From IMG/VR virus record IMGVR_UViG_3300030109_005105, positions 1 to 29,011 of that record: DNA of 29,011 nt; one strand, written 5' to 3'. Numbering within the stretch: the stretch's first letter is position 1; each line of letters opens with the position of its first letter. The stretch comes from a virus. Shown piece by piece: positions 13,111-26,911 of this stretch. A program made the position numbers and the translations under genes. The notes below the pieces were generated by a model. It was not told the DNA's origin. It did not search any database and saw only the letters and a list, made by a program, of their open reading frames with translations.

Positions 13111-13489
13111 CGATAGCGTCAATTCAGCAATACTGGAACGGGTTGAGAGAGTTGTAGAGGCACTACAAGACAACTCCGTTAAGATGGGTGAGTTGTTGGC
13201 AGTTCATAATGAGAAGTTAGACAAACAAGATCGTATTGATGCAGTTCTTTTTGAAAAAATAGAATCTCTGCACAAAGACATGGATCGTGCAACAGACGAA
13301 ATAAAAAAAGGATGTGAAAGAGATATAAGAAAGATTGATGAACGTCTCCGTCTTATGGAAAAAAAGATGTGGACCATTGCAGGTGCCCTGACTGTAATTT
13401 CATTCTTGGTCAGCATACCGGGTCAAAGATTAATGGGAAATTTCTTGACACCACCCTCAACACCGACTATAATAAGAGAGGCAAAATAG
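13103..13489 (+). CDS. Coiled-coil protein with C-terminal membrane span
   Basis: The product has 128 residues. Residues 10-88 are a heptad-rich coiled coil. Residues about 89-106 (MWTIAGALTVISFLVSIP) form a single membrane span, followed by a Pro/Thr-rich tail. The ATG at 13103 overlaps the upstream stop by eight bases. The topology (coiled coil then anchor) is like the protein at 22111-22416 and like small lysis-associated or tethering proteins, but there is no diagnostic motif. Confidence 0.55.
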   Translation: MDNDSVNSAILERVERVVEALQDNSVKMGELLAVHNEKLDKQDRIDAVLFEKIESLHKDMDRATDEIKKGCERDIRKIDERLRLMEKKMWTIAGALTVISFLVSIPGQRLMGNFLTPPSTPTIIREAK

Positions 13490-13502: not shown

Positions 13503-14474
13503 ATGGATTTGGTTGACTCCAAATATATCGGACTGGTTTCTTCGAGATTAAAAAAGTTTAAGAGAGTCAAGGCAAATCTTTTCAACTTCCGATGCCCTAT
13601 CTGTGGAGACTCACAGAAGCAAAAGAACAAGGCACGGGGATACATTTATCCCATCAAGAACAATATGAACTTTAAGTGTCATAATTGTGGTGCTAGTTTG
13701 TCTTTGAATAATTTTATAAAACAAGTGGATGCCACGCTCCATAAACAATATACTCTTGAGAAGTTCAAGGAAGGACATACTGGTAGAAACTTTGTGGTAG
13801 AGTCTCCCAAGTTGGAATTTGCCAAACCCATTTTTAAAAAATCTATTAATCTACCAAAAGCATCAACTGATTGTAGAGCAAAAGAATATCTGGTAAACCG
13901 TAAGATTAATCCTGATAAATTTTATTTTGCTGACAAGTTCATGGAGTGGACTAATAGTCAGAAACAAACCTTTGACAACATCCTCAAGGATGAGAGTCGT
14001 GTTGTAATACCGATGTATGATGAGAAGAAAAACCTTATTGGATTTCAAGGCAGATCTTTAGGAAAATCTTTCACTAAATACATCACCATCATGATTGATG
14101 AAGAAGCACCAAAGATTTATGGACTTGAAAAAATCGACAGAAAACAACCAATCTACATCGTCGAAGGACCCTTCGACTCCACGTTCGTGGAGAACAGCGT
14201 TGCTATGTGCGGGTCCGACATTGATGTTAGGTCGTTTGATTGGAGCGATTATATTTGGGTTCTTGATAATGAACCACGGAACCGAGAAATCGTCAACAGA
14301 GTATCCAGAGTCATTAGTAGAGGTGATAGAGTCGTCATCTGGCCAAACGGACTAATGGAGAAGGACATTAATGATATGGTTCTTGCTGGACATGATGTCA
14401 TGTCTATGTTAGAATTAAACACCTACTCGGGTTTAGAAGCAAAAATTAAATTTAACAATTGGAAAAAAATATGA
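13503..14474 (+). CDS. 61: DNA primase, T4 gp61 type
   Basis: The product has 323 residues; T4 gp61 has 342. It makes RNA primers for lagging-strand synthesis with the gp41 helicase. A zinc-binding domain has C31-P-I-C34 and C59-H-N-C62. The TOPRIM region has YIVEGPFDS with E221 and later IWVLDNE with D255 and E257, the acidic metal-binding residues. The PMYDEKKNLIGFQGRSL segment before it is typical of DnaG/gp61 RNA polymerase domains. It overlaps nrdA by four bases (ATGA), joining replication and nucleotide-supply genes in one unit. Confidence 0.9.
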   Translation: MDLVDSKYIGLVSSRLKKFKRVKANLFNFRCPICGDSQKQKNKARGYIYPIKNNMNFKCHNCGASLSLNNFIKQVDATLHKQYTLEKFKEGHTGRNFVVESPKLEFAKPIFKKSINLPKASTDCRAKEYLVNRKINPDKFYFADKFMEWTNSQKQTFDNILKDESRVVIPMYDEKKNLIGFQGRSLGKSFTKYITIMIDEEAPKIYGLEKIDRKQPIYIVEGPFDSTFVENSVAMCGSDIDVRSFDWSDYIWVLDNEPRNREIVNRVSRVISRGDRVVIWPNGLMEKDINDMVLAGHDVMSMLELNTYSGLEAKIKFNNWKKI

Positions 14475-16771
14475 CCAACGGAATCAACGTAAAAAAACGC
14501 AATGGAAGAGGGCAGGAACCGCTTCTTCTTGAAAAGATGCACAGAATGGTTGATGAGGCATGTAACGACCTTGCAGGGGTCTCTGCATCACAGGTAGAGA
14601 TGCAATCCGGTATTCAGTTCTATGATGGTATTACAACCGCAGAGATTCAAGAAATTCTAATTCGCTCTGCATCTGACCTGGTTGATTTGGATCATCCTAA
14701 TTATCAGTTTGTTGCTGCCCGTCTGTTATTGTTTTCTATTCGTAAACAATTGTATGGACGTAGGCACGAATTTCCAAAACTGAAAGACCATGTGTCAAGT
14801 TGTGTGGAAAGAGGTGTATATGATGCTGAACTTCTAAATCTGTATTCTAATGAAGAGTTTGACAAACTCGAATCATTCATTGATCATGACCGAGATTATC
14901 TGTTTACATTTGCGGGTCTTCGCCAGGTTGTAGATAAATATCTAGTGCAAGATCGAAGCAGCAGTGTTCTCTACGAAACACCACAATTCATGTATATTTT
15001 GATTGCTGCGACAATCTTTTCAAAATATCCAAAAGAGACACGTTTGGATTACGTTAAAAGGTATTATGACGCAATCAGCAAACACCGACTCAACATTCCA
15101 ACCCCCATCATGGCGGGAGTGCGAACGCCACTTAGGCAATATGCAAGTTGTGTTTTGGTTGATGTTGATGACACCCTCGATAGTATCTTTACTAGCGATA
15201 TGGCTATTGGCAAATACGTTGCACAAAGGGCTGGTATCGGCATTAATGCAGGCAGAATCCGGGGCATCAACGCTAAAATTAGAGGTGGAGAAGTTCAACA
15301 TACAGGCATTGTCCCATTCCTCAAAAAGTTTGAGAGCACTGTCAGATGTTGCACTCAAAATGGCATCCGAGGTGGAAGCGCAACTGTCCACTTTCCAATC
15401 TGGCACCAAGAAATAGAGGATATCATTGTACTTAAGAACAATAAAGGGACAGAAGATAATCGTGTCCGAAAGTTGGACTACAGCATCCAGATTTCAAAAC
15501 TCTTTTACGAAAGGTTTATTAAAAATGAAGAAATCAGTCTCTTCAGCCCTCACGATGTTCCAGGTTTGTATGATGCTTTTGGCACTGAATCGTTTGATGA
15601 TCTCTATACAAGTTATGAATCTGATGGATCTGTTCCGAGAAAAACTATCGGAGCACAAGATCTTTTCCTAGATCTTCTGAAAGAGAGAGCAGAAACTGGC
15701 AGATTGTATATTATGAATATTGATCACTGCAATTCTCACTCATCTTTTACGGACAAAGTTGAAATGAGTAATCTGTGTCAGGAGATCACTCTACCCACTA
15801 AACCTTTACAACACATTGACGATGAAACTGGGGAAATTGCTCTCTGTATCCTTTCTGCTATTAATATTGGTAAAATCAGGGATCTTGAAGATCTTGATGT
15901 TCTTTGTGATCTTGCTGTTAGGGGTCTTGATGAACTCATTGACTTTCAAGGATATCCAGTCAGAGCAGCAGAGATTGCCACCAAGGCACGTCGTTCATTA
16001 GGAATTGGTTACATTGGACTGGCACATTATCTTGCCAAGAATGGGGTCAAGTATGATAATCCAGAATCTTGGAAACTCGTTCATGATCTTACAGAAGCAT
16101 TCCAGTATTACTTAATTAGAGCAACTGTTAATCTTGCAAAAGAGAAAGGTGCCTGTAAATATAGTAATCGAACCAAGTATGGAAATGGAATTCTTCCGAT
16201 TGATACATATAAACATGACGTAGATGAGATTGTACCGAATGAGCTTCACTATGATTGGGAGAGTCTTCGGAATGATGTCATCAAATATGGAGTACGGAAC
16301 AGCACTCTGTCCGCACAAATGCCTTCGGAGAGCAGTTCCGTTGTGTCAAACGCAACAAATGGAATCGAACCTCCTAGAGGATACTTGTCCGTTAAAAAAT
16401 CCAAGAAAGGTCCCTTGAAGCAGATAGTTCCACAATACGGAACTCTCAAAAATAATTACACATTACTTTGGGACATGCCTGGTAATACTGGATACATTAA
16501 CATTGTTGCAGTGATGCAGAAGTTCTTTGACCAAGCAATTTCTGGAAACTGGAGTTACAATCCGGAACACTATGAAAACTCTGAAGTTCCTGTTAGTGTA
16601 ATGGCACAAGACCTCTTAACTACATATAAGTACGGTTGGAAGACCAGTTATTATCAGAACACTTACGACAATAAAAATGATGAAGTAGAAGAATCTACAG
16701 AGTCTCTTGATAGTTTAGTTTCTCAATTAGAAAACGCCGAGGAGGAAGACTGTGAGTCTTGTAAAATTTAA
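14471..16771 (+). CDS. nrdA: Ribonucleoside-diphosphate reductase, class Ia large (alpha) subunit
   Basis: The product has 766 residues (E. coli NrdA 761). It reduces ribonucleoside diphosphates to deoxy forms. Residues about 4-90 form an ATP-cone (VKKRNGRGQEPLLLEKMHRM), implying allosteric control is kept. Redox cysteines are C227 and C459. N434, C436 and E438 (NLCQE) form the radical active site. The YYQN tyrosine pair for radical transfer and the C-terminal C761/C764 pair are present, so every key residue is there. The start overlaps the primase stop; a TTG at 14459 is less likely. No intron or frameshift is seen. Confidence 0.95.
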   Translation: MTNGINVKKRNGRGQEPLLLEKMHRMVDEACNDLAGVSASQVEMQSGIQFYDGITTAEIQEILIRSASDLVDLDHPNYQFVAARLLLFSIRKQLYGRRHEFPKLKDHVSSCVERGVYDAELLNLYSNEEFDKLESFIDHDRDYLFTFAGLRQVVDKYLVQDRSSSVLYETPQFMYILIAATIFSKYPKETRLDYVKRYYDAISKHRLNIPTPIMAGVRTPLRQYASCVLVDVDDTLDSIFTSDMAIGKYVAQRAGIGINAGRIRGINAKIRGGEVQHTGIVPFLKKFESTVRCCTQNGIRGGSATVHFPIWHQEIEDIIVLKNNKGTEDNRVRKLDYSIQISKLFYERFIKNEEISLFSPHDVPGLYDAFGTESFDDLYTSYESDGSVPRKTIGAQDLFLDLLKERAETGRLYIMNIDHCNSHSSFTDKVEMSNLCQEITLPTKPLQHIDDETGEIALCILSAINIGKIRDLEDLDVLCDLAVRGLDELIDFQGYPVRAAEIATKARRSLGIGYIGLAHYLAKNGVKYDNPESWKLVHDLTEAFQYYLIRATVNLAKEKGACKYSNRTKYGNGILPIDTYKHDVDEIVPNELHYDWESLRNDVIKYGVRNSTLSAQMPSESSSVVSNATNGIEPPRGYLSVKKSKKGPLKQIVPQYGTLKNNYTLLWDMPGNTGYINIVAVMQKFFDQAISGNWSYNPEHYENSEVPVSVMAQDLLTTYKYGWKTSYYQNTYDNKNDEVEESTESLDSLVSQLENAEEEDCESCKI

Positions 16772-17936
16772 GACAAACAATGAGGAAAAGCCAATGGTCG
16801 ATGCAATGACCGTTTTTAATTCGGATGTGGTTGATACCAAAAAGCAACCAATGTTCTTTGGTAAACCATTGGGTATTCAGAGATATGATTCATATAAGTA
16901 TCCAATCTTTGACAAACTCACAACGCAACAATTGGGATACTTCTGGAGACCCGAAGAAGTTTCTCTTCAGAAAGATCGTGCAGATTATCAAACTCTTCGT
17001 CCTGAACAGAAGCATATTTTCACTTCCAACCTGAAGTATCAGATTATGCTGGATTCTGTCCAGGGTCGTGGTCCTGGAATGGCATTCATCCCCTACTGCT
17101 CCTTACCCGAATTAGAAGCATGTATGGAAGTCTGGGGATTCATGGAAATGATTCATAGTCGTTCCTATACACACATTATTAAGAACATCTATCCTGATCC
17201 CTCAGATGTATTTGATCACATTCTGACTGATGATCGCATTGTTGAACGTGCAATGAGTGTAACAGAAGCATATAATGATTTTATTAATGCAGCACATCAA
17301 TATGATAGTAGTAATGATTGGCAACACGCATTAGAAGAAGTTCCCTATGCACAAGAATCAAGGTATGAACTAAAGCGTAAACTCTTTAGAGCAATTGCCA
17401 ATGTCAACATTTTAGAAGGTATCCGATTCTATGTTAGTTTCGCTTGCAGTTTTGCATTTGGTGAACTTAAACTTATGGAAGGATCCGCTAAAATCATCTC
17501 ACTTATCGCTAGAGATGAAAATCTGCATCTTGCGATCACTCAAAACATATTGAAGAAGTGGAGAGAGGGTGATGATCCTGATATGGAACAAATCTTTAAG
17601 GAAGAACAGCGTTGGTTGTATTCCATGTTTGAAAAAACTGTGAACGAAGAAAAACTTTGGGCAGAGTATCTGTTCAAAGATGGATCTATGATTGGTTTGA
17701 ACGATAAACTGCTTCAGCAGTATGTGGAATGGATTGCCAATCGCAGAATGAAAGCAATCGGACTTAAACCAATCTATGACGTACCCGCAAAGAATAACCC
17801 ACTCCCCTGGACGGAACATTGGATTTCGTCAAAGGGTCTCCAAGTTGCTCCGCAGGAGACAGAAGTCGAATCCTATATCGTTGGAGGAATCAAACAAGAT
17901 GTTACCGAAACTACCTTTGCAGGATTCAGTCTTTGA
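16752..17936 (+). CDS. nrdB: Ribonucleoside-diphosphate reductase, class Ia small (beta) subunit
   Basis: The product has 394 residues (E. coli R2 376). It houses the diiron-tyrosyl radical that starts catalysis in NrdA. D101, E132 and H135, the radical tyrosine Y139 (in EMIHSRSYTH), and the later NILEGIRFYV and ARDENLH segments supply all iron ligands. The C-terminal tail that docks to NrdA is present. A GTG start at 16752 is favoured by a strong GAGGAGG site at 16739-16745 inside the nrdA end, giving a 20-base overlap. An ATG at 16794 with GAGGAAAAG upstream would remove 14 residues and is the alternative. Confidence 0.95.
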   Translation: MSLVKFKTNNEEKPMVDAMTVFNSDVVDTKKQPMFFGKPLGIQRYDSYKYPIFDKLTTQQLGYFWRPEEVSLQKDRADYQTLRPEQKHIFTSNLKYQIMLDSVQGRGPGMAFIPYCSLPELEACMEVWGFMEMIHSRSYTHIIKNIYPDPSDVFDHILTDDRIVERAMSVTEAYNDFINAAHQYDSSNDWQHALEEVPYAQESRYELKRKLFRAIANVNILEGIRFYVSFACSFAFGELKLMEGSAKIISLIARDENLHLAITQNILKKWREGDDPDMEQIFKEEQRWLYSMFEKTVNEEKLWAEYLFKDGSMIGLNDKLLQQYVEWIANRRMKAIGLKPIYDVPAKNNPLPWTEHWISSKGLQVAPQETEVESYIVGGIKQDVTETTFAGFSL

Positions 17937-18042
17937 TTCTGAAGAAGAAAAATCTTTAGAAGCATATAGGGAAGCAGCAAGATCAGACGCTTACATGTTT
18001 GGTGATTATGATGCATACTCTGCTTTTATTGATGATAAATAA
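17899..18042 (+). CDS. Small acidic protein following nrdB
   Basis: The product has 47 residues, rich in Asp, Glu, Tyr and Ala (SLEAYREAARSDAYMFGDYD). The ATG at 17899 has GGAGG at 17883-17887 and lies inside the nrdB end, overlapping by 38 bases. In this position some T4-like phages carry a glutaredoxin gene, but this product has no Cys-x-x-Cys and is not one. Function is unknown. Confidence 0.5.
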   Translation: MLPKLPLQDSVFDSEEEKSLEAYREAARSDAYMFGDYDAYSAFIDDK

Positions 18043-18063
18043 ATTTCAGAATGATGAAATGAT

Positions 18064-18504
18064 TTGGTAGACTATAAAAATCCCTGGATATTCCAGGGGA
18101 ATCCTTTTTTATCTGAAAATATTGAAGACAACTTTGGTTTTGTCTATCTTATTACAAATACCAAAAACAATCGCCAATATATTGGTAGAAAATACTTTTG
18201 GTCAAATAGAAAACCTAAAGGTAAATCTAGAAGAGTTAAATCTGAAAGCGACTGGAAAAAATACTACGGTAGTTCTGATGAACTTAACAAAGATCGTAAA
18301 GAGATTGGAAACGAATATTTTAAAAGAGAAATTTTAAGTCTTCATAAAACCAAGGGACAAGTTAATTATGAAGAGACTAAACAACTTTTTATTAATAATG
18401 TTTTAATCGAAGCCCTTGACGACGGGGGACCTCTCTACTATAATAGTAATATTCTAGGGAGGTACATGAAAAAAAATTATGGTAACTTTGGAGCAAACTC
18501 TTGA
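18064..18504 (+). CDS. GIY-YIG endonuclease, SegE-like
   Basis: The product has 146 residues. FGFVYLI (24-30) and YIGRKYFW (39-46) are the two strands of a GIY-YIG domain; a basic helix, W64 and KKYYGSSDEL follow, matching the SegE-like group of free-standing phage endonucleases. Such enzymes cut DNA and can promote spread of their own gene between related phages. The frame has no ATG near its start; a stop at 18055 leaves the TTG at 18064 as the only plausible initiation codon. nrdA and nrdB are intact, so there is no sign of an intron. The catalytic assignment is by motif only. Confidence 0.8.
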   Translation: MVDYKNPWIFQGNPFLSENIEDNFGFVYLITNTKNNRQYIGRKYFWSNRKPKGKSRRVKSESDWKKYYGSSDELNKDRKEIGNEYFKREILSLHKTKGQVNYEETKQLFINNVLIEALDDGGPLYYNSNILGRYMKKNYGNFGANS

Positions 18505-18667
18505 AGACAACTATCATTGGTCTATAGATCGTATTCATTATCTTTGTGAAAAGAATATAGATGATGCTCATGCTATTCAAAAAGAATTTTCAGAATGGTT
18601 GAATCCAAATATCAACGATCATGACGTGTTCTCTCTTGAATACATAGGAGATGACTTTCTTGATTGA
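18479..18667 (+). CDS. Small acidic protein, unknown
   Basis: The product has 62 residues, acidic, with a His/Trp/Tyr-rich N-terminus (DNYHWSIDRIHYLCE). It overlaps the nuclease gene by 26 bases. Its stop codon overlaps the -35 box of the next promoter, so it ends the nrd-nuclease transcription unit. No family is recognised. Confidence 0.5.
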   Translation: MVTLEQTLEDNYHWSIDRIHYLCEKNIDDAHAIQKEFSEWLNPNINDHDVFSLEYIGDDFLD

Positions 18668-18692
18668 CAAACCCTTGTAAGTGCCCTATAAT
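18664..18692 (+). promoter_or_regulatory. Consensus sigma-70-type promoter
   Basis: TTGACA (18664-18669) and TATAAT (18687-18692) are separated by 17 bases, a perfect consensus. Transcription should start near 18699. It would drive the operon from 18707 to 23821 using host RNA polymerase, as expected of early genes. The -10 box overlaps the 5' arm of a terminator hairpin (18690-18719). Confidence 0.8.
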
Positions 18693-18724
18693 AGGGGAGC
18701 AGTTAAATGTTCCCCTATTTTTTT
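18690..18724 (+). terminator. Intrinsic terminator overlapping the promoter -10 box
   Basis: AATAGGGGA (18690-18698) pairs perfectly with TCCCCTATT (18711-18719), leaving a 12-base loop. Ts continue to 18724. RNA coming from the nrd/nuclease genes would form this hairpin and stop. RNA starting at the overlapping promoter would begin after the 5' arm and could not form it. The ATG at 18707 and its GGGGAG site lie inside the hairpin, and the next in-frame ATG (18725) directly follows the T-run. Confidence 0.7.
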
Positions 18725-19120
18725 ATGCTTGCGACAATTCTTGCTCTATCAGCAGTTGACTATGATCATCTTGCAAGGACAATCCAAGTCGAAACCTATC
18801 GTGGAAGTTTTGATGGATATTGTGTAGCAGTATCGGTTCTAAACCGTGTCAGGTCTCCATACTATCCAAACAGTGTTGCCGATGTTGTATATGCTCCCGG
18901 ACAATATGAGGGTTTCACCAAATGGCGTCCAGCAGCAGATCCTAATCTAGTAAATACACTCAGGTCGGATGAAGGAAAGAAAAACCTTTTGAAGGCATAT
19001 AGCATTATTGGTGATCGAACTGACTTCAAAGGTCAGAGTATGCTCAGATATCGAGTTGCATCTCAAGATCCAATGTGCGATACTAGAGGAAATTTCTATC
19101 ACTATCATTGGCAAACATGA
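18707..19120 (+). CDS. Cell-wall hydrolase, SleB-like
   Basis: The product has 137 residues. LARTIQVETYRGSFDGYC, then VLNRVRSPYYPNSV and YAPGQYEGF, match the SleB/Hydrolase_2 fold, a peptidoglycan lytic-transglycosylase-type domain in which the glutamate of the QVET segment would be catalytic. The N-terminus (MFPYFFMLATILALSA) is hydrophobic and could be an export signal. Two starts are possible: ATG 18707, with GGGGAG seven bases upstream but inside a hairpin, or ATG 18725, which removes six hydrophobic residues. It heads a long operon. Host-wall digestion at lysis or during late infection is the likely role. Confidence 0.7.
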   Translation: MFPYFFMLATILALSAVDYDHLARTIQVETYRGSFDGYCVAVSVLNRVRSPYYPNSVADVVYAPGQYEGFTKWRPAADPNLVNTLRSDEGKKNLLKAYSIIGDRTDFKGQSMLRYRVASQDPMCDTRGNFYHYHWQT

Positions 19121-19479
19121 TTAGAATACGAGCAATCAGAGATATTTTCAAACCGTTTAAAAAAAATGAAGTGGTTTGTGAAATTGATGAAGATGTTGTA
19201 TCCTGTGAGAGTGAAGCTTTCAAACAGGATGCAATAAATTATTATACAGGTGTCCCTGCTCCTACTAATCTCCAAGATGATATTTGGTTTGGTCCCGATC
19301 CCAAACAAAATCAAGAAGATAAGGACTACATGGAACAGGAAACTGCAATTAAAATGCAGGATAATTTTTCTGTTGAACCTAGTGACATTCATCAAGTCAT
19401 GTATGAGATTGCAATACAAAATCAATCCACTACACTTCATATTGATCTTCCTGGAGGATCGGAAAATGTCCACCGATGA
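19117..19479 (+). CDS. Conserved acidic protein, unknown
   Basis: The product has 120 residues. An N-terminal basic/hydrophobic strand (IRIRAIRDIF) is followed by an acidic middle with DDIWFGPDPKQNQ and a C-terminus ending in a beta-like segment (STTLHIDLPGG). The ATG overlaps the preceding stop by four bases. No motif is diagnostic. Confidence 0.55.
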   Translation: MIRIRAIRDIFKPFKKNEVVCEIDEDVVSCESEAFKQDAINYYTGVPAPTNLQDDIWFGPDPKQNQEDKDYMEQETAIKMQDNFSVEPSDIHQVMYEIAIQNQSTTLHIDLPGGSENVHR

Positions 19480-19693
19480 TTGGCGTTACAATGAAGATAA
19501 ATTAAAAGTTCGTGAACAAGCACTCACGATTCTTTTAAAAAAATATGGTTCTGAACTAAATTCAACAAGGGAATCTAAATACAAATCCCAATCCATCTAT
19601 GAATGTGCCCATGATTGGGTTTCCCAAGGCAATGTGAATTGTAATGGCATTGTCAAATACTACGAGGCTTACTATTATGCAAAAAGTAATTAA
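19466..19693 (+). CDS. Small helical protein, unknown
   Basis: The product has 75 residues, with a predicted helix (KLKVREQALTILLKKYG) and a C-terminal CAHDWVSQGN...YYEAYYYAK part. GGAGG at 19453-19457 sits at ideal distance before the ATG at 19466, which overlaps the preceding gene by 14 bases. The family is not recognised. Confidence 0.6.
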   Translation: MSTDDWRYNEDKLKVREQALTILLKKYGSELNSTRESKYKSQSIYECAHDWVSQGNVNCNGIVKYYEAYYYAKSN

Positions 19694-19937
19694 TGTTTTA
19701 GCAATCTTGTCATTTGTAGGAACGGCAGGTATTGTCGGAACTGCAGGTGTTGTCTATTTGAGACGAGATGCGATTATCGAACAGGTTAAAGAGAATGTTG
19801 CCAAAGCAGCAACAGAAGCAATTGCAGGAGCACTCCCCGGTATGATGAACTCCGCAATGCCCGAACTTCCTGGTGCCACAGGCGGTGTTATCCCTGGTAC
19901 ATCTGGTTCTACACCTGGATTTGCTGCTCCTTTCTGA
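19677..19937 (+). CDS. Small membrane-anchored Ala/Gly-rich protein
   Basis: The product has 86 residues. One N-terminal hydrophobic span (about 4-27) is followed by a basic RRD stop-transfer, an Ala-rich helix (about 40-60) and a Gly/Pro/Ser-rich tail (TGGVIPGTSGSTPG). The start overlaps the upstream gene by 17 bases. I recall similar proteins in cyanomyoviruses, all uncharacterised. Confidence 0.55.
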   Translation: MQKVINVLAILSFVGTAGIVGTAGVVYLRRDAIIEQVKENVAKAATEAIAGALPGMMNSAMPELPGATGGVIPGTSGSTPGFAAPF

Positions 19938-19938
19938 T

Positions 19939-20616
19939 ATGAAAAATTTTATTCTTGCTATGCTGTTAGCAGCATCTCCTGCATTTGCAGGTGGTCCAGT
20001 CACTAGAAATCAACAACCTAAAGTTGAATTTTTCACTATGGATGCCATGGGTTGTATGCTCCTCCAGGAATGTACAGATGGAATCGAAGAAGTATTCAGT
20101 ATCCATGATATTAGTGATCAGTATCCCAATCGTGATTATAATATTGTTGCTGACGAGTTCCATGCAATGCTCGTTGCCCTTAATCAGGTCGGAGTTAAGG
20201 TGTTTCTAGCAGACAAAAAATATTTTCCCACAATGCATCGTGGTGTTTATCACACTGTTGGCAACAACTTCTTCCTTAATAAAAAGTATATGGATGATCC
20301 TGCCACACTGATGATGGTGATGCGTCATGAAGGATGGCATGCAGCACAGGATTGCATGGCAGGCACTATCGAGAATAGTATGATTGCTATTATCAAACCT
20401 GAAGAAGAAGTGCCTATGATTTGGCGTGTGATGGCAGAGAGAACCTATCCAGAATCTGCTGTGCCGTGGGAAGCAGAGGCAGGTTGGGCAGGTCGCACTG
20501 AGAAAATGACCATGGAAGCACTACAATCCTGTGCTCGTGGTACGATGTGGACTGATTATGAACCCACTCCTATGACTCGTGAGTGGTTGGAGGAGAACAA
20601 TTACATCGCTAAATAA
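19939..20616 (+). CDS. Exported HEXXH metallopeptidase-like protein
   Basis: The product has 225 residues. A clear signal peptide (MKNFILAMLLAASPAFA) is followed by a 200-residue domain. H130-E131-G-W-H134 is an HEXXH zinc motif, and PWEAEAGW at 176-183 (E178 or E180) could supply the third ligand, a gluzincin-like layout. C39, C45, C139 and C198 could form disulfides outside the cytoplasm. The start lies one base after the preceding stop. It would act in the periplasm or outer envelope, or be released. The substrate is unknown; I do not recognise a named peptidase family, so the enzyme call rests on the motif alone. Confidence 0.6.
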   Translation: MKNFILAMLLAASPAFAGGPVTRNQQPKVEFFTMDAMGCMLLQECTDGIEEVFSIHDISDQYPNRDYNIVADEFHAMLVALNQVGVKVFLADKKYFPTMHRGVYHTVGNNFFLNKKYMDDPATLMMVMRHEGWHAAQDCMAGTIENSMIAIIKPEEEVPMIWRVMAERTYPESAVPWEAEAGWAGRTEKMTMEALQSCARGTMWTDYEPTPMTREWLEENNYIAK

Positions 20617-20637
20617 AGTTGCCTCTGTATACAGATA

Positions 20638-21093
20638 ATGCCTGAAGTTCGCAGCGATGTAAAAGAAGTTAAAAAGGAAGAACCTAAAAAGAAAGGTATT
20701 CTTGGTAAAATTAAGGAGGCAACAGATGACAAGGAAGAACAACTTGCTATTCTTTCTACCTTTGTCCGTCTTGGTATCCTTGTTTGGTCTGGTTCAATTC
20801 TCACTTTGGCATACATCAAACTACCTCCTGCACTCGGAATTCCTGAACAGAAACTTGATCCAACCTTCATCGCCTCCGTCTTTACCGGGGTCTTAGCTTC
20901 TTTTGGGGTCCAGACTGCAAAGAAGAATGGTGCTAATGGTGGTGGAGGTGGAAGTAGCATCACCAAAGAACAGATGGAAAAACTGATTGAGAAAGCATCA
21001 CAAACTGCACCTCATCAAACTCTTCGTATTGAGCAGGCACCAGTTACCTTAAAGGTTGATACACCAGATTCTAAAGACTCTTACAAGATGTAA
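20638..21093 (+). CDS. Two-span membrane protein, unknown (holin-like topology)
   Basis: The product has 151 residues. A lysine-rich cytoplasmic N-terminus (1-30) is followed by a hydrophobic span at about 42-60, a short loop, a second span at about 76-94, a GANGGGGGSS linker and a hydrophilic C-terminus. Two spans with charged ends fit class II holins, and a wall hydrolase is encoded in the same operon, but the long tail is unusual and no holin signature is seen. Confidence 0.55.
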   Translation: MPEVRSDVKEVKKEEPKKKGILGKIKEATDDKEEQLAILSTFVRLGILVWSGSILTLAYIKLPPALGIPEQKLDPTFIASVFTGVLASFGVQTAKKNGANGGGGGSSITKEQMEKLIEKASQTAPHQTLRIEQAPVTLKVDTPDSKDSYKM

Positions 21094-21096
21094 GTT

Positions 21097-21648
21097 ATGA
21101 TTAACAAACGATCTCCATTTAAGTGGGCGGCACTGACAGTAGGAACACTGTTCGGTGTCGCTCATATTGGTATATTAGGACACCTTATTAATAAAAAAGA
21201 TATTCCAATTATCAACTTGCCTGTTGGTGACTATACATCATATAGTGTAGAGGCAGGTAAAGATGGTTATAGCATACAATATAGTTCTAATGACCCCAAA
21301 GTTATGGGTGTCAGAAAATCATTAGACAAAAAGAATGGGTTCTTTGGTATTGGTGGAACTACAGATTTGATTACAGAAGAAGAATATACGATGGATGGAG
21401 CAAGGCATCTAGGAGGTGCCGAGGGAAAGTTGACTGCCAAAAATCTGGAATGCATCAAAGCGGAGGGCGCTGGAGAGTCAACCGGAAGAATGGTCGGTGC
21501 TAGTGTTGGTGCAGGTATTGCTCCTATCTTTACAGGTATTCCTTATGTTGGTTGGTTGATATCTGGTTGGGCAGTCATGTTGGGTCAGGATACTGGTGCT
21601 GATATTGGTGGAGAAGTTGCAACTATGATGAAAGATTGTGAGGAGTAA
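21097..21648 (+). CDS. Membrane protein with glycine-zipper-like C-terminus
   Basis: The product has 183 residues. One N-terminal span (about 10-30) is followed by a soluble strand-rich middle (INLPVGDYTSYSVEAG) and a hydrophobic Gly-rich region at about 128-170 (RMVGASVGAGIAPIF, then GWAVMLGQDTGADIGG) typical of glycine zippers that pack in membranes. GAGGAG near its end serves as ribosome site for the next gene. Function is unknown. Confidence 0.55.
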   Translation: MINKRSPFKWAALTVGTLFGVAHIGILGHLINKKDIPIINLPVGDYTSYSVEAGKDGYSIQYSSNDPKVMGVRKSLDKKNGFFGIGGTTDLITEEEYTMDGARHLGGAEGKLTAKNLECIKAEGAGESTGRMVGASVGAGIAPIFTGIPYVGWLISGWAVMLGQDTGADIGGEVATMMKDCEE

Positions 21649-21818
21649 TGGTAGATATAGCACATAAGGCATCACACTTTGCTGCCATTACACTTAATAA
21701 TCCATACGGACTTGGTTTTTTAAGTCTTATATTAATTGTTGTTCCAATTATTGGAATGCAGTTGGTGCATAAGTATGGGTGGGAACACTGGGAACCCTTT
21801 GCAAAGGAGCACAAATGA
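21648..21818 (+). CDS. 56-residue single-span membrane peptide
   Basis: The ATG overlaps the upstream stop by one base (TAATG) and GAGGAG lies at 21640-21645. One hydrophobic span covers about residues 20-38 (YGLGFLSLILIVVPIIGM), with a His/Trp-rich amphipathic C-terminus (HKYGWEHWEPFAKEHK). First of four consecutive one-span peptides. Confidence 0.6.
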   Translation: MVDIAHKASHFAAITLNNPYGLGFLSLILIVVPIIGMQLVHKYGWEHWEPFAKEHK

Positions 21819-21901
21819 TGAGTGGTATATTTGTATTTGCTTTTATCTCTCTATTGTGCTATACAATGCACATTACATGGCCACTACCCTATAGGAAATA
21901 A
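21815..21901 (+). CDS. 28-residue membrane micro-protein
   Basis: The ATG overlaps the preceding stop by four bases. AAGGAG at 21804-21809 is a strong ribosome-binding site at good spacing, which is the main reason to believe this very short gene. The peptide is one hydrophobic span (SGIFVFAFISLLCYTM) with a short TWPLPYRK tail. Confidence 0.45.
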   Translation: MMSGIFVFAFISLLCYTMHITWPLPYRK

Positions 21902-21903
21902 TT

Positions 21904-21978
21904 ATGGCAATACTAGCAACACTGAGTCTCCTGGCAGTAGCAGTTTACGGAGCATATGCCCTAACACCTAAAAAATGA
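21904..21978 (+). CDS. 24-residue membrane micro-protein
   Basis: It starts two bases after the preceding stop, with AGGAAA at 21893-21898 as likely ribosome site. The product is a single Ala/Leu/Val helix ending TPKK. Its size and shape recall one-helix photosystem subunits, but I compared it from memory with several psb and pet products and found no match. Confidence 0.4.
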   Translation: MAILATLSLLAVAVYGAYALTPKK

Positions 21979-22118
21979 ATTTATTATTACGCCCTCTTGA
22001 TAATGTTGCTGATCCTGTGTGGTCGGTAATTATTTCCTTAATCATATTTCTTGCTGGTGTAACGTATTATATCGTCTATATAATGCGTATGGCTTTCGAT
22101 GAATTGAAAGATGAGTGA
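21975..22118 (+). CDS. 47-residue single-span membrane peptide
   Basis: The ATG overlaps the preceding stop by four bases. A short soluble N-terminus (LLLRPLDNVADP) is followed by a long hydrophobic span at about 17-37 and a charged tail (AFDELKDE). No good ribosome site is visible, so translation is probably coupled. Function is unknown. Confidence 0.5.
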   Translation: MNLLLRPLDNVADPVWSVIISLIIFLAGVTYYIVYIMRMAFDELKDE

Positions 22119-22416
22119 CCTTACGAATAAAGATGCGGAGCAGGATACAAAGATTGCTGTAATAGACAGCACTCTAGATAATTCTATTCGTCGCATCGAA
22201 ATGGTTCATAAACGTGTTGATGATACTAACGAAGAACTGGAAAAACTTCGTGATCGTATTCGCACCTTGGAGAAGTGGGTTGCCGGTGCTGGTGCAGTAA
22301 TTGCAGCAGCAACATTCATCATAGGCATAATAGCATCAGCAGACTCAAAGGAGATCAATCATGGGCGCAATGGTTCCCCCCAGCAGGAAGTCGTGTTACA
22401 ACTTCCGCGTAGTTGA
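22111..22416 (+). CDS. Coiled-coil protein with membrane span
   Basis: The product has 101 residues. Residues 8-55 are a heptad-rich coiled coil (RIEMVHKRVDDTNEELEKLR). Residues about 57-76 are an Ala/Ile-rich membrane span, followed by a short polar tail. This layout recalls haemolysin XhlA-type and other phage lysis accessory proteins. It overlaps the preceding gene by eight bases and the next gene by 56 bases. Confidence 0.55.
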   Translation: MSDLTNKDAEQDTKIAVIDSTLDNSIRRIEMVHKRVDDTNEELEKLRDRIRTLEKWVAGAGAVIAAATFIIGIIASADSKEINHGRNGSPQQEVVLQLPRS

Positions 22417-22822
22417 GATAAACCGAGTGGTTGATGGTGACACCATCGACGTTACAATCGATCTTGGATTTGATCTCTATAAGAAGGAGCGAGTCAGAGT
22501 TGCAGGTGTGGATACGCCTGAGAAGCGCACCAGAGATTTAGAGGAGAAGGAACTTGGAATCGACGCAACCTACTGGCTCAAAGAAAAACTGGAGGGTGCT
22601 ATATCTGGTGACGATGAGTTGTCTGTTAGGACTGAACTTGTTGGTGGCGTTGGGAAATATGGCCGTCTTCTTGGGTGGTTATACATTGGGGACTCAGAAC
22701 TGTCCCTTAACGAGCAAATGATTACAGAAGGATATGCCTGGCCTTATGATGGTGGAACCAAGCAAAAAGACTTTGAGGAGTTAAGAGAAATTCGTAGAGC
22801 ACACGGAACTCTTGTTGACTAG
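22361..22822 (+). CDS. Staphylococcal-nuclease-like (thermonuclease) protein
   Basis: The product has 153 residues, one SNase OB-fold domain. VVDGDTIDV (23-31) carries D27; RVAGVDTPE (46-54) carries R46, D51, T52 and E54; YGRLLGWLY (100-108) carries R102. These match D21, R35, D40, T41, E43 and R87 of the S. aureus enzyme, so the active site looks complete. It would hydrolyse DNA or RNA with calcium. No signal peptide is seen, suggesting action in the host cytoplasm, perhaps on host nucleic acid. AAAGGAG at 22347-22353 supports the ATG at 22361, which lies 56 bases inside the upstream gene. Confidence 0.85.
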   Translation: MGAMVPPSRKSCYNFRVVEINRVVDGDTIDVTIDLGFDLYKKERVRVAGVDTPEKRTRDLEEKELGIDATYWLKEKLEGAISGDDELSVRTELVGGVGKYGRLLGWLYIGDSELSLNEQMITEGYAWPYDGGTKQKDFEELREIRRAHGTLVD

Positions 22823-23040
22823 TGGACTTATCAGACCTAGAAGGATTGTTTGAGGATGAATGGTATTGTGAAGTTAGAATGAATATCACTGAAATTCGTT
22901 CTCTATACCAAGTCATATCATATGCTTTGGAGGTATGGCCGGGTTCTCCTGCACGACCCGCAGAAGAACAAGAGTATCTTCTTCACATGAAGAAGCAATT
23001 GTTTGCAATGATTTCAGATTATAACTTTTATAATAATTAG
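22822..23040 (+). CDS. Small conserved soluble protein, unknown
   Basis: The product has 72 residues. The start is GTG, overlapping the upstream stop by one base. The N-terminus is acidic with DEWYCEVRM, followed by a helical part with EVWPGSPARPAEEQEYL and a terminal DYNFYNN. A GTG start with direct stop overlap implies coupling to the nuclease gene. The family is not recognised. Confidence 0.55.
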   Translation: MDLSDLEGLFEDEWYCEVRMNITEIRSLYQVISYALEVWPGSPARPAEEQEYLLHMKKQLFAMISDYNFYNN

Positions 23041-23044
23041 ATAA

Positions 23045-23821
23045 ATGCCTGAAATTGAACCAATAAAAATTTATAACTTAAATATTAATAATCTTGGTAT
23101 TTCAAAAGCACGGGTATTTGATATTCCGCCACCTGTAGTTAATAATCTATTTGTCCCTGTGACTGTGGATATTGGCAATCCTATTATTGAAATGCCTGGT
23201 TGTGTAAAGGATCATCCTGACGGTAATGAGCAACTAACAATAGATGATCCCAAAGGAACAAAAATCTTATGTACAAATGAATACCCATCCTACAATGCGA
23301 TGGATTATACACCAGAAGATTTAGTATATCAGCAGGAAGCACCAGTCCCTCCTACCAACATAGCAGAAACTCCACCAACACCAGAGGTTCCTGCAGATGC
23401 AATTCCACAAACAGCAAAGGAAACTCCTCCTTGTCCTGGACCCAATCAACCACGCATCGGTGATGTAGCACAGAACCAGAAGGAAAGAGTATCTGGTTAT
23501 GAATTGCAGATGGTAAATGGTCAAGAGATATGTGTTGTTCTTTATGAAGACATACCCTGGCAGTCACAATATCTTCCAGCACCTCAAATTGCCGCGACTA
23601 CTGCCGGTATTGCCGTTGTTGCCACTAGTTCTGCTCTGTTGGCAAAACCATTAGCAGATCTACTTCTTAAAGTACTTAAACCTGTCATCAAAAAAATAAT
23701 GGCAAAAATTTCAAAACTTAGGGGAAAGGAAGTTAAGGTTTTGTCTTCAAGGGACCGCCGAGATCTTCAGCGCGAACGCTCACGGGCGATTCGGACCTTG
23801 AGGAAGATGACGAAGGAATAG
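23045..23821 (+). CDS. Proline-rich protein with C-terminal membrane segment and basic tail
   Basis: The product has 258 residues. A strand-rich N-terminus (about 1-60) is followed by a Pro/Glu-rich middle (EAPVPPTNIAETPPTPEVP), a hydrophobic segment at about 182-205 (IAATTAGIAVVATSSALL) and a strongly basic C-terminal tail. Its last 89 bases overlap the minus-strand gene ending at 23733. It closes the long plus-strand operon. No family is recognised. Confidence 0.6.
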   Translation: MPEIEPIKIYNLNINNLGISKARVFDIPPPVVNNLFVPVTVDIGNPIIEMPGCVKDHPDGNEQLTIDDPKGTKILCTNEYPSYNAMDYTPEDLVYQQEAPVPPTNIAETPPTPEVPADAIPQTAKETPPCPGPNQPRIGDVAQNQKERVSGYELQMVNGQEICVVLYEDIPWQSQYLPAPQIAATTAGIAVVATSSALLAKPLADLLLKVLKPVIKKIMAKISKLRGKEVKVLSSRDRRDLQRERSRAIRTLRKMTKE

Positions 23822-24428
23822 AGTGTCGATGTGGTTTAACGTGAGTTACATTATTAACCACGACATCGGCACACACGCTATAGTAAGGACTTCTAGGATG
23901 AAAAGAAATTCCTGCCTTTATCAATTCTCCACAATTCTTGAGCCTGGCTATCTCAAAGTCGAGGCGCTTATTGGCAAGCAACTGAGCACGATACTCATTG
24001 TTAGTTTTTGCTGCTTCTTTACACAACTGTTGTGCCTTTTTATCCATTGGTATTGATAGAGTTGCACTCATACCTACCGATAAACTTGAATTATTGGTTT
24101 GCCCGGTTCTAGTTGGAATATGATATAATATCTGACCTGGATTATCTGGGATGCCGTCGTCGTTATTATCTGCATTATTATAAACAGGTTGATCCCACAT
24201 ATGCTCAAAGGGATGTTTTTGGGATAAAGCACCTGTCACATATGGGGTTATGTTCATAGTCGGACCCTGACAACTGATTCCATCCCCATAAGTATTTGTT
24301 ATGTATGGACCCTGTAAAACCTGAATGGCCTGATTGGTCACTGAGCCAGATGAATTAGCAACGGGATTTGCTGTAGCAGAAACTCCACCAACATCTGCCG
24401 CAAGGGCAGGTGAAGGTAGTAATGTCAT
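23733..24428 (-). CDS. Exported protein with a calcium-loop-like motif (third gene of minus operon)
   Basis: The product has 231 residues from the ATG at 24428, which overlaps the upstream stop by one base (TAATG). The N-terminus reads TLLPSPALAAD, a signal-peptide end. The body carries ATANPVANSSGSVTNQ, an acidic ADNNDDGIPDNPG segment like a thrombospondin type-3 calcium loop, a KRLDFEIARLKNCGEL helix and paired cysteines (DGISCQ, QQLCKE, KNCGEL, YSVCAD). The tail is Ser/Arg-rich and lies in the overlap with the plus-strand gene. I recall relatives in cyanomyoviruses, uncharacterised. The signal peptide may begin upstream of this ATG. Confidence 0.65.
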   Translation of the reverse strand: MTLLPSPALAADVGGVSATANPVANSSGSVTNQAIQVLQGPYITNTYGDGISCQGPTMNITPYVTGALSQKHPFEHMWDQPVYNNADNNDDGIPDNPGQILYHIPTRTGQTNNSSLSVGMSATLSIPMDKKAQQLCKEAAKTNNEYRAQLLANKRLDFEIARLKNCGELIKAGISFHPRSPYYSVCADVVVNNVTHVKPHRHSIPSSSSSRSESPVSVRAEDLGGPLKTKP

Positions 24429-24871
24429 TATTGCGAGAATATACTTGTAGTAGTTGTGATACTTTGTATTGTTTGTTCTCTTTGGATAATTGTTTGTGTT
24501 GCTAATCCTGGTGCTTGGTACGTCTCCGTAAATTGAAACGGATCTCCTATCGTTTGTTGCGAGAATGTTGGTCTCGAATTCATATTTAAACCAGTCCATG
24601 TCGAAGTCACGCCATTGATAGTATTAGATTGATTTGTAACCGAGGATGGTGCTAGACCATCATTCGATTTAATGTTGGTTCCGGTCACAGAGTATTGATA
24701 CCCCGTGTTATAGTCCATAGAGTTAATAGTCTCACTAATAGTGCTAGTCGTTTCCGTGGTTGAGGTCATTGAGCCCTGAGTGAAGTTTGGAACCACCGGC
24801 ACTGCAATCGCAGTTTTTGCACTCACAAGGACAATTGCACCCGCACTCAGAACAAGTTTTAGAAGTTTCAT
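24428..24871 (-). CDS. Exported Ser/Thr-rich protein (second gene of minus operon)
   Basis: The product has 147 residues. A classic signal peptide (KLLKLVLSAGAIVLVSA, cleaved about residue 23) is followed by a mature part dominated by Thr, Ser, Asn and Gln (TTETTSTISETINS, TIIQREQTIQSITT) with few charges, typical of an extracellular, beta-rich or fibre-forming protein. It starts three bases after the preceding stop and ends in a TAATG junction with the next gene. No named family. Confidence 0.65.
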   Translation of the reverse strand: MKLLKLVLSAGAIVLVSAKTAIAVPVVPNFTQGSMTSTTETTSTISETINSMDYNTGYQYSVTGTNIKSNDGLAPSSVTNQSNTINGVTSTWTGLNMNSRPTFSQQTIGDPFQFTETYQAPGLATQTIIQREQTIQSITTTTSIFSQ

Positions 24872-24874
24872 TAC

Positions 24875-25363
24875 TCATTTAACCATTAACTCCTGAACAA
24901 ATTGTCCGGTGGCACTTGTGCCTGCTCCACCAGCAGTAATCGTCATAGCACCAGCAGAGGTGATAGTGCCTGCCAGATCGCCAGCAGCACCAGCAGCATT
25001 TGAAGTCTGACTAGAGAAGTTGCTGACAGCACCTACAGAAGGAGCTGAAGTTGGCACGGCATCGGCCTGCATATACGTAGCAGAATATGAGAATGCACTG
25101 CCGTTGGATGCCTGGGTGGCAGCAATCGTTCCGGGTGCCATAACACCACTGGTAATCGTGCCAGAAGAAATAGTTCCTGCAGTGGTTCCGTCCGTGGTAT
25201 TTACACCACTACCGGATACACTGTATGAAGAACCAAGTCTAGTTGCCTGGGTCGCAGCAGAGTTCACGGTCAGTTGAACACTAGAACTTAATTTATGTGT
25301 AATATCGGCATGTGCGGGTGCCGTCATCGCTAACATACTAAAAAGCACTAATGCTTTCTTCAT
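24875..25363 (-). CDS. Exported Ser/Thr/Ala/Gly-rich protein (first gene of minus operon)
   Basis: The product has 162 residues. The signal peptide MKKALVLFSMLAMTAPAHA has cleavage expected after AHA. The mature chain is almost uncharged and Ser/Thr/Ala/Gly-rich, with repeating TxxSGTxxSGVMAPGT-like strands and a terminal FVQELMVK. Low charge with alternating small/polar residues suggests surface beta structure. It is the promoter-proximal gene of the only minus-strand block; its promoter must lie in 25364-25470, where a near-match to the late box (GCTAAATA, minus strand, 25388-25395) is the best candidate. Confidence 0.65.
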   Translation of the reverse strand: MKKALVLFSMLAMTAPAHADITHKLSSSVQLTVNSAATQATRLGSSYSVSGSGVNTTDGTTAGTISSGTITSGVMAPGTIAATQASNGSAFSYSATYMQADAVPTSAPSVGAVSNFSSQTSNAAGAAGDLAGTITSAGAMTITAGGAGTSATGQFVQELMVK

Positions 25364-25414
25364 GAATTTTCATTTCAGTTGTGAAATTATTTAGCTTGAC
25401 CTTTTTTAAAAAAG

Positions 25415-25443
25415 TTGACGCATGGTATAAAAGGTATTATAAT
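25415..25443 (+). promoter_or_regulatory. Sigma-70-type promoter for the tRNA-Arg unit
   Basis: TTGACG (25415-25420) and TATAAT (25438-25443) have a 17-base spacer. The start should fall near 25450, about 20 bases before tRNA-Arg. The palindrome CTTTTTTAAAAAAG (25401-25414) directly abuts the -35 box and could act as an UP element. Confidence 0.75.
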
Positions 25444-25470
25444 AATTGAGTTGAGATGAAAACCACTTAT

Positions 25471-25544
25471 GGGCAAGTAGCTCAGATGGATAGAGCCACG
25501 CACTTCTAATGCGTTGGTCGGGGGTTCGAGTCCCTCCTTGCCTG
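25471..25544 (+). tRNA. tRNA-Arg (anticodon TCT)
   Basis: The cloverleaf folds completely: acceptor GGGCAAG/CTTGCCT, D-stem GCTC/GAGC, anticodon stem ACGCA/TGCGT with loop CTTCTAA (anticodon TCT), and T-arm with TTCGAGT. CCA is not encoded. It reads AGA and AGG, codons that are common in the genes here. Confidence 0.93.
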
Positions 25545-25560
25545 CTGTCTTTACAAAACT

Positions 25561-25731
25561 ATGGACCCTATTGAAATTCTTCGCATTATTGATAATCTAG
25601 AGGGATCCTATCATCATCTTAGGATATGTGGTTTTGATGAAGACAAGGACACAATCAGAGAAATGTGTAACGGGTACTACAAAATGTACTTTAAACTCTG
25701 CAAAGAACAAGGGAGAAATCCTTACGGATGA
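25561..25731 (+). CDS. Small protein between tRNA genes, unknown
   Basis: The ATG at 25561 opens a 56-residue frame: an acidic helical N-terminus (DPIEILRIIDNLEG) and a Cys/Tyr-rich basic C-terminus (CNGYYKMYFKLCKEQG). It lies between tRNA-Arg and tRNA-Asn with gaps of 16 and 5 bases, so it is probably on the same primary transcript and released by tRNA processing. The family is not recognised. Confidence 0.55.
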   Translation: MDPIEILRIIDNLEGSYHHLRICGFDEDKDTIREMCNGYYKMYFKLCKEQGRNPYG

Positions 25732-25736
25732 TTCAA

Positions 25737-25808
25737 TCCTCTGTAGCTCAGCGGTAGAGCCGACGACTGTTAATCGTCTGGTCGCAGGTTCGAATCCTGC
25801 CGGGGGAG
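25737..25808 (+). tRNA. tRNA-Asn (anticodon GTT)
   Basis: Complete cloverleaf: acceptor TCCTCTG/CGGGGGA with G-T pairs, D-stem GCTC/GAGC, anticodon stem GACGA/TCGTC with loop CTGTTAA, and T-arm GCAGG-TTCGAAT-CCTGC. No encoded CCA. No separate promoter is evident; it is likely co-transcribed from 25415. Confidence 0.93.
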
Positions 25809-25837
25809 TTGACAAGAATCAAAACTTGTCATATACT
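25809..25837 (+). promoter_or_regulatory. Sigma-70-type promoter for tRNA-Gly
   Basis: TTGACA (25809-25814) begins directly after tRNA-Asn; TATACT (25832-25837) follows after 17 bases. The start should be near 25844, about 38 bases before tRNA-Gly. Confidence 0.65.
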
Positions 25838-25860
25838 ATCTCTTGTGTGAAGGAAGTGCA

Positions 25861-25876
25861 GGGAGAGTAATCTCCC
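25861..25876 (+). other. Small hairpin in the tRNA-Gly leader
   Basis: GGGAGA-GTAA-TCTCCC forms a perfect 6-bp stem five bases before tRNA-Gly, followed by TTCTT. It may be a processing signal or a weak terminator for readthrough from tRNA-Asn. Confidence 0.4.
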
Positions 25877-25881
25877 TTCTT

Positions 25882-25952
25882 GCGGAATTAGTTTAGAGGC
25901 AAAACTAAAGGTTTCCAACCTTTCGTCACCGGTTCGATTCCGGTATTCCGCT
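25882..25952 (+). tRNA. tRNA-Gly (anticodon TCC)
   Basis: Complete cloverleaf: acceptor GCGGAAT/ATTCCGC, D-stem GTTT/AAAC, anticodon stem AAAGG/CCTTT with loop TTTCCAA, and T-arm ACCGG-TTCGATT-CCGGT. No encoded CCA. It reads GGA, a frequent glycine codon here. Confidence 0.93.
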
Positions 25953-25973
25953 TCGGAAAACCGAATTTCCGAA
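25952..25973 (+). other. Hairpin directly after tRNA-Gly
   Basis: TTCGGAAA pairs with TTTCCGAA (8 bp, 6-base loop), starting at the tRNA discriminator base. There is no T-run, so a 3'-end processing or pausing element is more likely than a standard terminator. Confidence 0.45.
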
Positions 25974-25985
25974 AATACATGTGAG

Positions 25986-25993
25986 TATAAATA
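25986..25993 (+). promoter_or_regulatory. T4-type late promoter (TATAAATA)
   Basis: An exact TATAAATA box between tRNA-Gly and the barrel-protein gene. Transcription should begin near 25999, where AACGTTAC-TCT-GTAACGTT (25998-26016) forms an 8-bp hairpin at the very 5' end of the RNA. The remaining leader to 26091 is non-coding. Confidence 0.7.
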
Positions 25994-26091
25994 CTCCAAC
26001 GTTACTCTGTAACGTTTTACAACAGGGAGTTGTCGATTCCCTTTCCATCTGCGGGTAATCATTCCGCAAGTAAATAACGAGGTTTAAACAA

Positions 26092-26463
26092 ATGATCAAG
26101 TCTGTATTCGCAGTCACTGCTGCTCTTTTCACATCTGCAGGTGCTGCCCTTGCAGGTCCCTACGTCAACGTAGAGGCAAATTCCGGTTTCACGGGATCCA
26201 ACTACAACGGCACGACCACTGATTTCCACGTAGGTTACGAAGGTGACCTGGGTGAGAATGCTGCATATTACGTCCAAGCCGGTGCAAGTCTGGTCTCCCC
26301 TGATGGTGCCGAGAGTGACACTGTTCCTTCTGGTAAGGCAGGTCTTGGTGTTGGTCTGACCGACAACCTGGGTGCTTATGGTGAAGTTTCCTTTGTCGGT
26401 TCCGGTTCTGCTTCCGTTGACCGTGGTTATGGAACCAAACTCGGACTGAAGTACAGCTTCTGA
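26092..26463 (+). CDS. Exported small outer-membrane beta-barrel-like protein
   Basis: The product has 123 residues. The signal peptide ends GAALA (cleavage about residue 21). The mature part has alternating-residue strands with glycine-rich turns (YVNVEANSGF, HVGYEGDLGENAAYYVQAG, LGAYGEVSFVGSG) and ends YGTKLGLKYSF, the aromatic C-terminus typical of outer-membrane barrels. A mature part of about 102 residues would give only some eight short strands, so a small barrel or partial porin-like protein fits. It has its own late promoter and terminator. I recall similar cyanophage and picocyanobacterial proteins; function is unknown. Its G/C content is higher than that of its neighbours. Confidence 0.65.
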   Translation: MIKSVFAVTAALFTSAGAALAGPYVNVEANSGFTGSNYNGTTTDFHVGYEGDLGENAAYYVQAGASLVSPDGAESDTVPSGKAGLGVGLTDNLGAYGEVSFVGSGSASVDRGYGTKLGLKYSF

Positions 26464-26464
26464 G

Positions 26465-26493
26465 TTTACAACTGAACATCTAGATGTTATATT
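26465..26493 (+). promoter_or_regulatory. Possible sigma-70-type promoter with palindromic spacer
   Basis: TTTACA (26465-26470) and TATATT (26488-26493) are each one base off consensus with a 17-base spacer. The spacer holds the perfect 14-bp palindrome AACATCTAGATGTT (26475-26488), a possible operator. The start would be near 26500, inside the 5' arm of the terminator that follows. Confidence 0.4.
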
Positions 26494-26519
26494 GGGGGTG
26501 CGACGGCACCCCTTTTTTT
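26494..26519 (+). terminator. Intrinsic terminator
   Basis: GGGGTGC (26495-26501) pairs with GCACCCC (26506-26512) around a GACG tetraloop, followed by seven Ts (26513-26519). It ends the barrel-protein transcript. The next start codon is the very next base. Confidence 0.9.
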
Positions 26520-26699: not shown

Positions 26700-26702
26700 A
26701 TA

Positions 26703-26837: not shown

Positions 26838-26856
26838 AATCTTAAGAAAAATGGGC

Positions 26857-26885: not shown

Positions 26886-26911
26886 ATGTAAAGATTCATT
26901 ACATTAGGTAA

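Follow-up and report, generated by a model that had tools for sequence, protein, structure and literature searches.

Genes and features at the locus

The window, by which we mean the whole 29011-base stretch of DNA that was analysed, is a virus record whose relatives are cyanomyoviruses. Its genes and features relevant here are:

14459-16771: nrdA
16752-17936: nrdB
18064-18504: segE-like GIY-YIG gene (alternative label 'NAD synthetase')
18416-18444, + strand: sigma70-type promoter TTGACG-17-TATAAT (11/12), inside the segE-like nuclease gene
18479-18667, + strand: 62-aa ORF with its stop codon within the -35 (phrog_23981 / phrog_4892, unknown function)
18664-18669, + strand: -35 hexamer TTGACA, in which TGA 18665-18667 doubles as the stop of the upstream ORF
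18687-18692, + strand: -10 hexamer TATAAT, after a 17-bp spacer
18690-18701, + strand: hairpin 5' arm AATAGGGGAGCA, its first three bases common to the -10 (from the fold and covariation in relatives)
18699, + strand: predicted +1, within the 5' arm, 7 bases past the -10 end by sigma70 geometry (18699-18701 all possible)
18708-18719, + strand: hairpin 3' arm TGTTCCCCTATT
18718-18724, + strand: T-run of 7 T of the predicted intrinsic terminator, abutting the start codon
18725-19120, + strand: endolysin / cell wall hydrolase gene, 131 aa from ATG 18725 (137 aa from 18707)
26465-26493, + strand: second copy, weaker promoter TTTACA-17-TATATT with an extended -10
26494-26519, + strand: second copy, hairpin 26494-26513 (beginning one base past the -10) and T-run 26513-26519
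26520-26699, + strand: second copy, 59-aa ORF whose ATG abuts the T-run

The product of the 18725-19120 gene matches PF07486 (E 3e-8) and the endolysin family phrog_12490 (E 7e-60). The perfect TTGACA-n17-TATAAT promoter named in the preliminary description is borne out, with a 12/12 sigma70 match at 18664-18692 and a spacer of 17 bp, and so is its overlap with the 5' arm of the hairpin, the two sharing three bases (18690-18692). Promoter calls here and below are consensus matches; the window contains two exact copies of the pattern, where dinucleotide shuffles lead one to expect 0.01.

The hairpin had been described as having a 9-bp GC core and a T-run. Hairpin and T-run are indeed present, but the stem (18690-18719) consists of 12 pairs, including one G-T and five G-C, around a loop of 6. 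The element has the GC-rich hairpin followed by at least five T that are expected of an intrinsic terminator. A 77-nt stretch at this place folds with −26.9 kcal/mol (z = −4.8), and 0 of 200 shuffles were as good; the outer helix of this fold was set aside, since the flanking bases are not the same in the listed relatives. An Rfam search of window positions 17500-27000 returned only tRNAs, with no known RNA above the gathering score at the element.

RNA begun at the 18416 promoter would include both arms of the hairpin. The same segE codons read TTGACA..TATAAT or TACAAT in four relatives in which the endolysin gene directly follows segE (L023, L050, L053 and L057).

Promoters elsewhere in the window may be recorded separately. 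The second exact TTGACA-17-TATAAT, at 13445-13473, stands 5' of a primase-like gene and has no hairpin, and most cyanomyoviruses in the set have a similar, promoter-like sequence where the gene preceding their primase ends. Strong + strand sigma70-type promoters are also clustered near tRNA genes and small ORFs, at 25415-25443, 25809-25837, 26857-26885, 27919-27948 and 28667-28695.

Conservation in the endolysin family and the start codon

About half or more of 80 endolysin homologues on viral contigs have the full layout upstream. Among the remaining homologues, some follow an outer-membrane-like gene and its plain terminator, some have a promoter within segE, and some have nothing of the kind; the relatives with a plain terminator or no terminator 5' of the ATG count against the explanation that we favour below.

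The preliminary description had held that promoter and hairpin should recur jointly in related phages, and the joint layout is kept in 28 distinct homologous elements, each with the same gene (endolysin) downstream. The upstream gene's stop is the TGA inside TTGACA in 28/28, and in just as many a T-run of 5-7 lies directly or nearly directly 5' of the ATG. At least three kinds of upstream gene join this endolysin cassette, with ends reading ..IGDDFLD or ..IGDDDFVP, ..YAPSPS and similar, and ..KSKENNP. Within the stem, the sixth position after the -10 is A-T in 20 relatives and G-C in 8; the seventh is C-G, A-T, G-C or G-T and is paired in 27/28; and the eighth is C-G, A-T or T-A and is paired in 26/28, counts that are taken from folds, which favour paired solutions, and from relatives that are related to one another and not independent. 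Judged by these predicted pairings, the stem changes are compensatory.

Predicted folding separates the two kinds of RNA that could lead into the gene. For the 28 copies, the mean folding energy is −12.4 kcal/mol for readthrough RNA, taken from the -10 to the ATG, and −0.6 kcal/mol for RNA taken from the predicted +1 to the ATG. Opening the start region would on average cost 10.9 kcal/mol in readthrough RNA versus 3.3 kcal/mol in promoter-started RNA. The former would keep a stable hairpin a few bases 5' of ATG 18725, and poor translation is therefore to be expected of it, in line with the earlier proposal that readthrough RNA would be harder to translate.

The start codon had been placed both at the end of the T-run and at 18707, two ATGs that share a reading frame. 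The former placement stands, whereas the latter does not. The T-run ATG is kept in 28/28 distinct relatives, in three of them a few bases beyond the T-run, whereas an ATG within the hairpin is in frame in 9/28, out of frame in 10/28 and absent from 9/28, and ATG 18707 is ruled out as the start by this poor conservation. In RefSeq, too, the Bellamy homologue begins at the T-run ATG. The endolysin gene thus almost certainly starts at ATG 18725, 5 bases past the stem, and the layout itself aids the choice of start codon by pointing to the ATG after the T-run and not to the hairpin-internal one. The ribosome site proposed at GGGGAG had to be given up as well: of its six bases only the last would be transcribed from the predicted +1, so that it would be unusable in promoter-started RNA. 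The 3' arm contains no Shine-Dalgarno sequence.

Recurrence before other genes and in other genomes

Viral contigs were scanned for the exact promoter with TTTTTATG 12-40 bases downstream of it, which gave at least 114 distinct sites. A hairpin is present in 20 of the 114 sites listed, whereas 200 rounds of shuffling the gap give 3.3 ± 1.5 and never more than 9. The layout is enriched over shuffles, better than chance. Among the matches listed, all 20 hairpins begin within two bases of the -10 end (−2 to +2), and the pattern permits later starts; one further hairpin begins at +8, so that 1 of 21 starts after +1 among the listed exact promoters with T5ATG. Hairpin offsets of +6 to +20 belong mostly to weak sites.

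At 14 of the 20 hairpin sites among the matches listed, an ORF of 72 aa or more begins at the T-run ATG, and the downstream genes include SAICAR synthetase (purC), glutaredoxin, transaldolase and a 72-aa orphan family. For purC, the layout is kept with different stems in several contigs, in Syn33 and in S-SKS1, and is lost or lacking in others. A scrambled-tail control, TTTTTGTA, still yields a hairpin near the -10 in 6 of 90 sites among the matches listed, and composite sites are therefore not confined to those that abut an ATG. As an element by itself, TATAATAGGGG was ruled out, since only 11/97 distinct viral-contig sites with TTGACA-n17-TATAATAGGGG have a hairpin.

A scan of 19 T4-related genomes plus the window (3.68 Mb), combining terminators with promoters that match at 10/12 positions or more, brings out two registers. 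In register A the hairpin lies over the -35 and the T-run forms the spacer (34 same-strand vs 7 opposite-strand cases at −40 to −31); in register B, the layout of the window element, the hairpin sets in where the -10 ends (14 same-strand vs 1 opposite-strand at −5 to +4). With a weighted promoter score, the 17 cyano- and pelagiphage records (16 genomes and the window) give 10 same-strand register B sites vs 0 on the opposite strand at −2 to +5. Register B sites are present in Bellamy (two), P-SSM4, S-PM2, S-RSM4, S-SKS1 (two), Syn9 and the window (two); the layout precedes the Bellamy endolysin gene at about 185061, and the Syn9 copy is at about 168322. The 29-kb window has two copies and each complete genome 0-2, small counts that come to about 10-20 in about 3 Mb, with some of the sites homologous, such as the three after psbD. 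In those three genomes, S-PM2, S-RSM4 and Syn9, the copy stands behind a shared gene end reading LPRGNAL, which we take to be that of psbD, and the next gene is not shared.

Other arrangements were seen along the way. The -35 lies in a terminator stem or loop, with the T-run as spacer, in KVP40, P-SSM2, P-SSM4, P-TIM68, S-SKS1, S-SSM5 and others, and several of the register A copies in S-SKS1 are alike (CACAGCACC..GGGGTGCTTTTT). Inverted repeats fill the 17-bp spacer between -35 and -10 in RB49 and Syn9, for example TTGACAGGGGATCGGTGATCCCCTATAAT in RB49. In the KVP40 and RB49 copies the hairpin covers the -35 or occupies the spacer.

The T4-type late box, ATAAATA, occurs in the same place. At the start of a terminator hairpin that runs into an ATG, offsets −4 to +7 hold 8 same-strand cases and no opposite-strand one. 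The sites include S-SM1 166452, S-SSM5 167439, Syn33 166797, S-PM2 117805 and P-SSM2 143383; the ORFs that follow have 702-737 aa in S-SM1, S-SSM5 and Syn33 and 132 aa in S-PM2. We take these ATAAATA sites at register B to be putative late promoters.

Proposed mechanism, related systems and alternatives

The reading that we consider probable is that of a short element at a gene boundary, made up of an intrinsic terminator and a sigma70-type promoter that overlap in such a way that the start site lies inside the 5' arm. Polymerase arriving from nrdAB and segE, including any that started at the 18416 promoter, would copy both arms, and the hairpin would form and stop it in the T-run. A polymerase that starts at about 18699 would transcribe the endolysin operon; its RNA would be without most of the 5' arm and therefore without the hairpin, and its leader of about 26 nt would be U-rich and lack a Shine-Dalgarno sequence. 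With upstream RNA stopped and transcription restarted inside the hairpin, the next gene would thus be driven by its own promoter and not by its neighbours. Such termination of upstream RNA and restart within the hairpin had been proposed in the preliminary description, and both the geometry and the conservation argue for it. The operon had been called early in the preliminary description; its first gene is an endolysin, and any timing of its expression would be read only from the sigma70-type sequence of the promoter.

Intrinsic (Rho-independent) terminators likewise consist of a GC-rich stem and a T-run, to which the window element adds an overlapping promoter in the same direction. Composite promoter-terminator cassettes of T4-like phages, the promoter early stem-loops (PeSLs), have been credited with gene shuffling and discussed for S-PM2 (PMC4503421). 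The window element resembles them in that a strong sigma70-like promoter is fused, through the shared bases 18690-18692, to a stem-loop and T-run at a gene boundary in a T4-related phage. Different genes are joined at such boundaries, and the gene content, with at least three upstream genes meeting at the -35 and different genes after the psbD copy, points to gene exchange. However, the hairpin of the window element sits at -10/+1 and not over the -35 or in the spacer, the register that we take to be that of PeSLs; transcription would start within the 5' arm, and the T-run leads straight into the next ATG. The register A sites, like those of KVP40 and RB49, are presumably PeSL-like; on PeSLs, PMC4503421 cites Arbiol 2010 and Comeau 2014.

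The second relevant system is T4 gene e, where late promoters lie inside a hairpin and the structure formed in long RNA is reported to cut lysozyme synthesis 100-fold; leader hairpins with internal late promoters have also been reported for soc, 49 and I-TevI (PMC3014915). In both gene e and the window element a long RNA with both arms would be blocked, RNA from a promoter within the 5' arm would be free of that arm (here judging from the predicted +1 at 18699 and the fold energies), and a lysis gene lies downstream. Gene e differs in having no T-run, a Shine-Dalgarno sequence in the 3' arm, and late promoters, whereas the window element has a terminator T-run, no Shine-Dalgarno sequence near the ATG, and a sigma70-type promoter. 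The Shine-Dalgarno sequence and AUG inside the helix and the late (gp55-type) promoter that mark gene e are not found in the window element. The window element thus looks like a variant register of the PeSL-type composite promoter-terminators that acts partly like the gene e hairpin, and since it would work like both it is best filed as a variant composite promoter-terminator.

It is also possible, though we are doubtful, that the overlap itself has no function and that a working terminator and a working promoter have merely been pressed together. A tightly packed genome would predict what is seen, with the stop codon fused to the -35, the -10 to the stem and the T-run to the ATG, and ATG-abutting terminators have no promoter call in 22/30 cases. 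However, mere packing does not account for hairpins that start at two fixed registers, over the -35 or at the -10 end, and hardly ever at positions in the middle (a gap partly explained by sequence incompatibility), for a register kept within one gene family despite changes in stem sequence, or for the rarity of hairpins beginning after +1, the single case among the 21 listed above. An element that is mainly a translational lock, as in gene e, with long RNAs hiding the start of the lysis gene, short ones exposing it and termination secondary, seems unlikely to us. The downstream gene is an endolysin, the start region is predicted to open far less readily in long RNA, and gene e itself is a precedent; a search of T4, RB49 and KVP40 for this geometry, with a late box where a hairpin begins and an ORF behind it, has T4 lysozyme (164 aa) as its one match. 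Yet the T-run found in every one of the 28 elements would be superfluous for such a lock, the ATG is outside the stem, the 3' arm offers no Shine-Dalgarno sequence to hide, and the layout precedes metabolic genes too.

We likewise think it improbable that the element is primarily a recombination junction, the function ascribed to PeSLs, at which shared promoter-hairpin sequence lets phages swap boundary genes. The various upstream genes do meet the one endolysin cassette exactly at the TGA of TTGACA, S-PM2, S-RSM4 and Syn9 do differ in the gene that follows the psbD copy, and PeSLs are reported as mediating shuffling in T4-like phages, according to work cited in PMC4503421. However, the copies are alike in layout and not in sequence, the stems of the window's own two copies differ, so that the homology available for recombination would be short, and PMC4503421 judged PeSL shuffling unlikely for its S-PM2 region. 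An inverted-repeat operator, bound by a repressor and not folded as RNA, would typically be placed over -10/+1 as the hairpin is, but relatives differ widely in arm sequences and loop length and yet retain the pairing and the T-run; this variability rules the operator out as very improbable. Finally, the element could by analogy be a stop-and-restart relay and not an insulator, a variant that we rate as quite unlikely: a terminated polymerase would keep sigma, slide back about 30 bp and restart at the overlapping promoter. Recycling of RNA polymerase to nearby promoters after termination has been described in vitro, with E. coli polymerase only (PMC6978380), and the window promoter, about 30 bp from the termination point, is within the reported sliding reach (PMC6978380). 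If the relay were true, transcription of the upstream operon would feed initiation at the next gene while the RNAs remained separate.

In the composite promoter-terminator reading that we prefer, the element is a precise and testable layout of about 60 bases that may serve marine cyanophages, which are abundant, to keep adjacent genes apart: the stop codon lies in the -35 and the -10 in the terminator stem, transcription would start in the 5' arm, and the T-run ends at the start codon. It would also mark places of gene swapping. That sigma70-type and late-type boxes have the register in common suggests a solution of general use for separating genes in time in the tightly packed genomes of T4-like phages.
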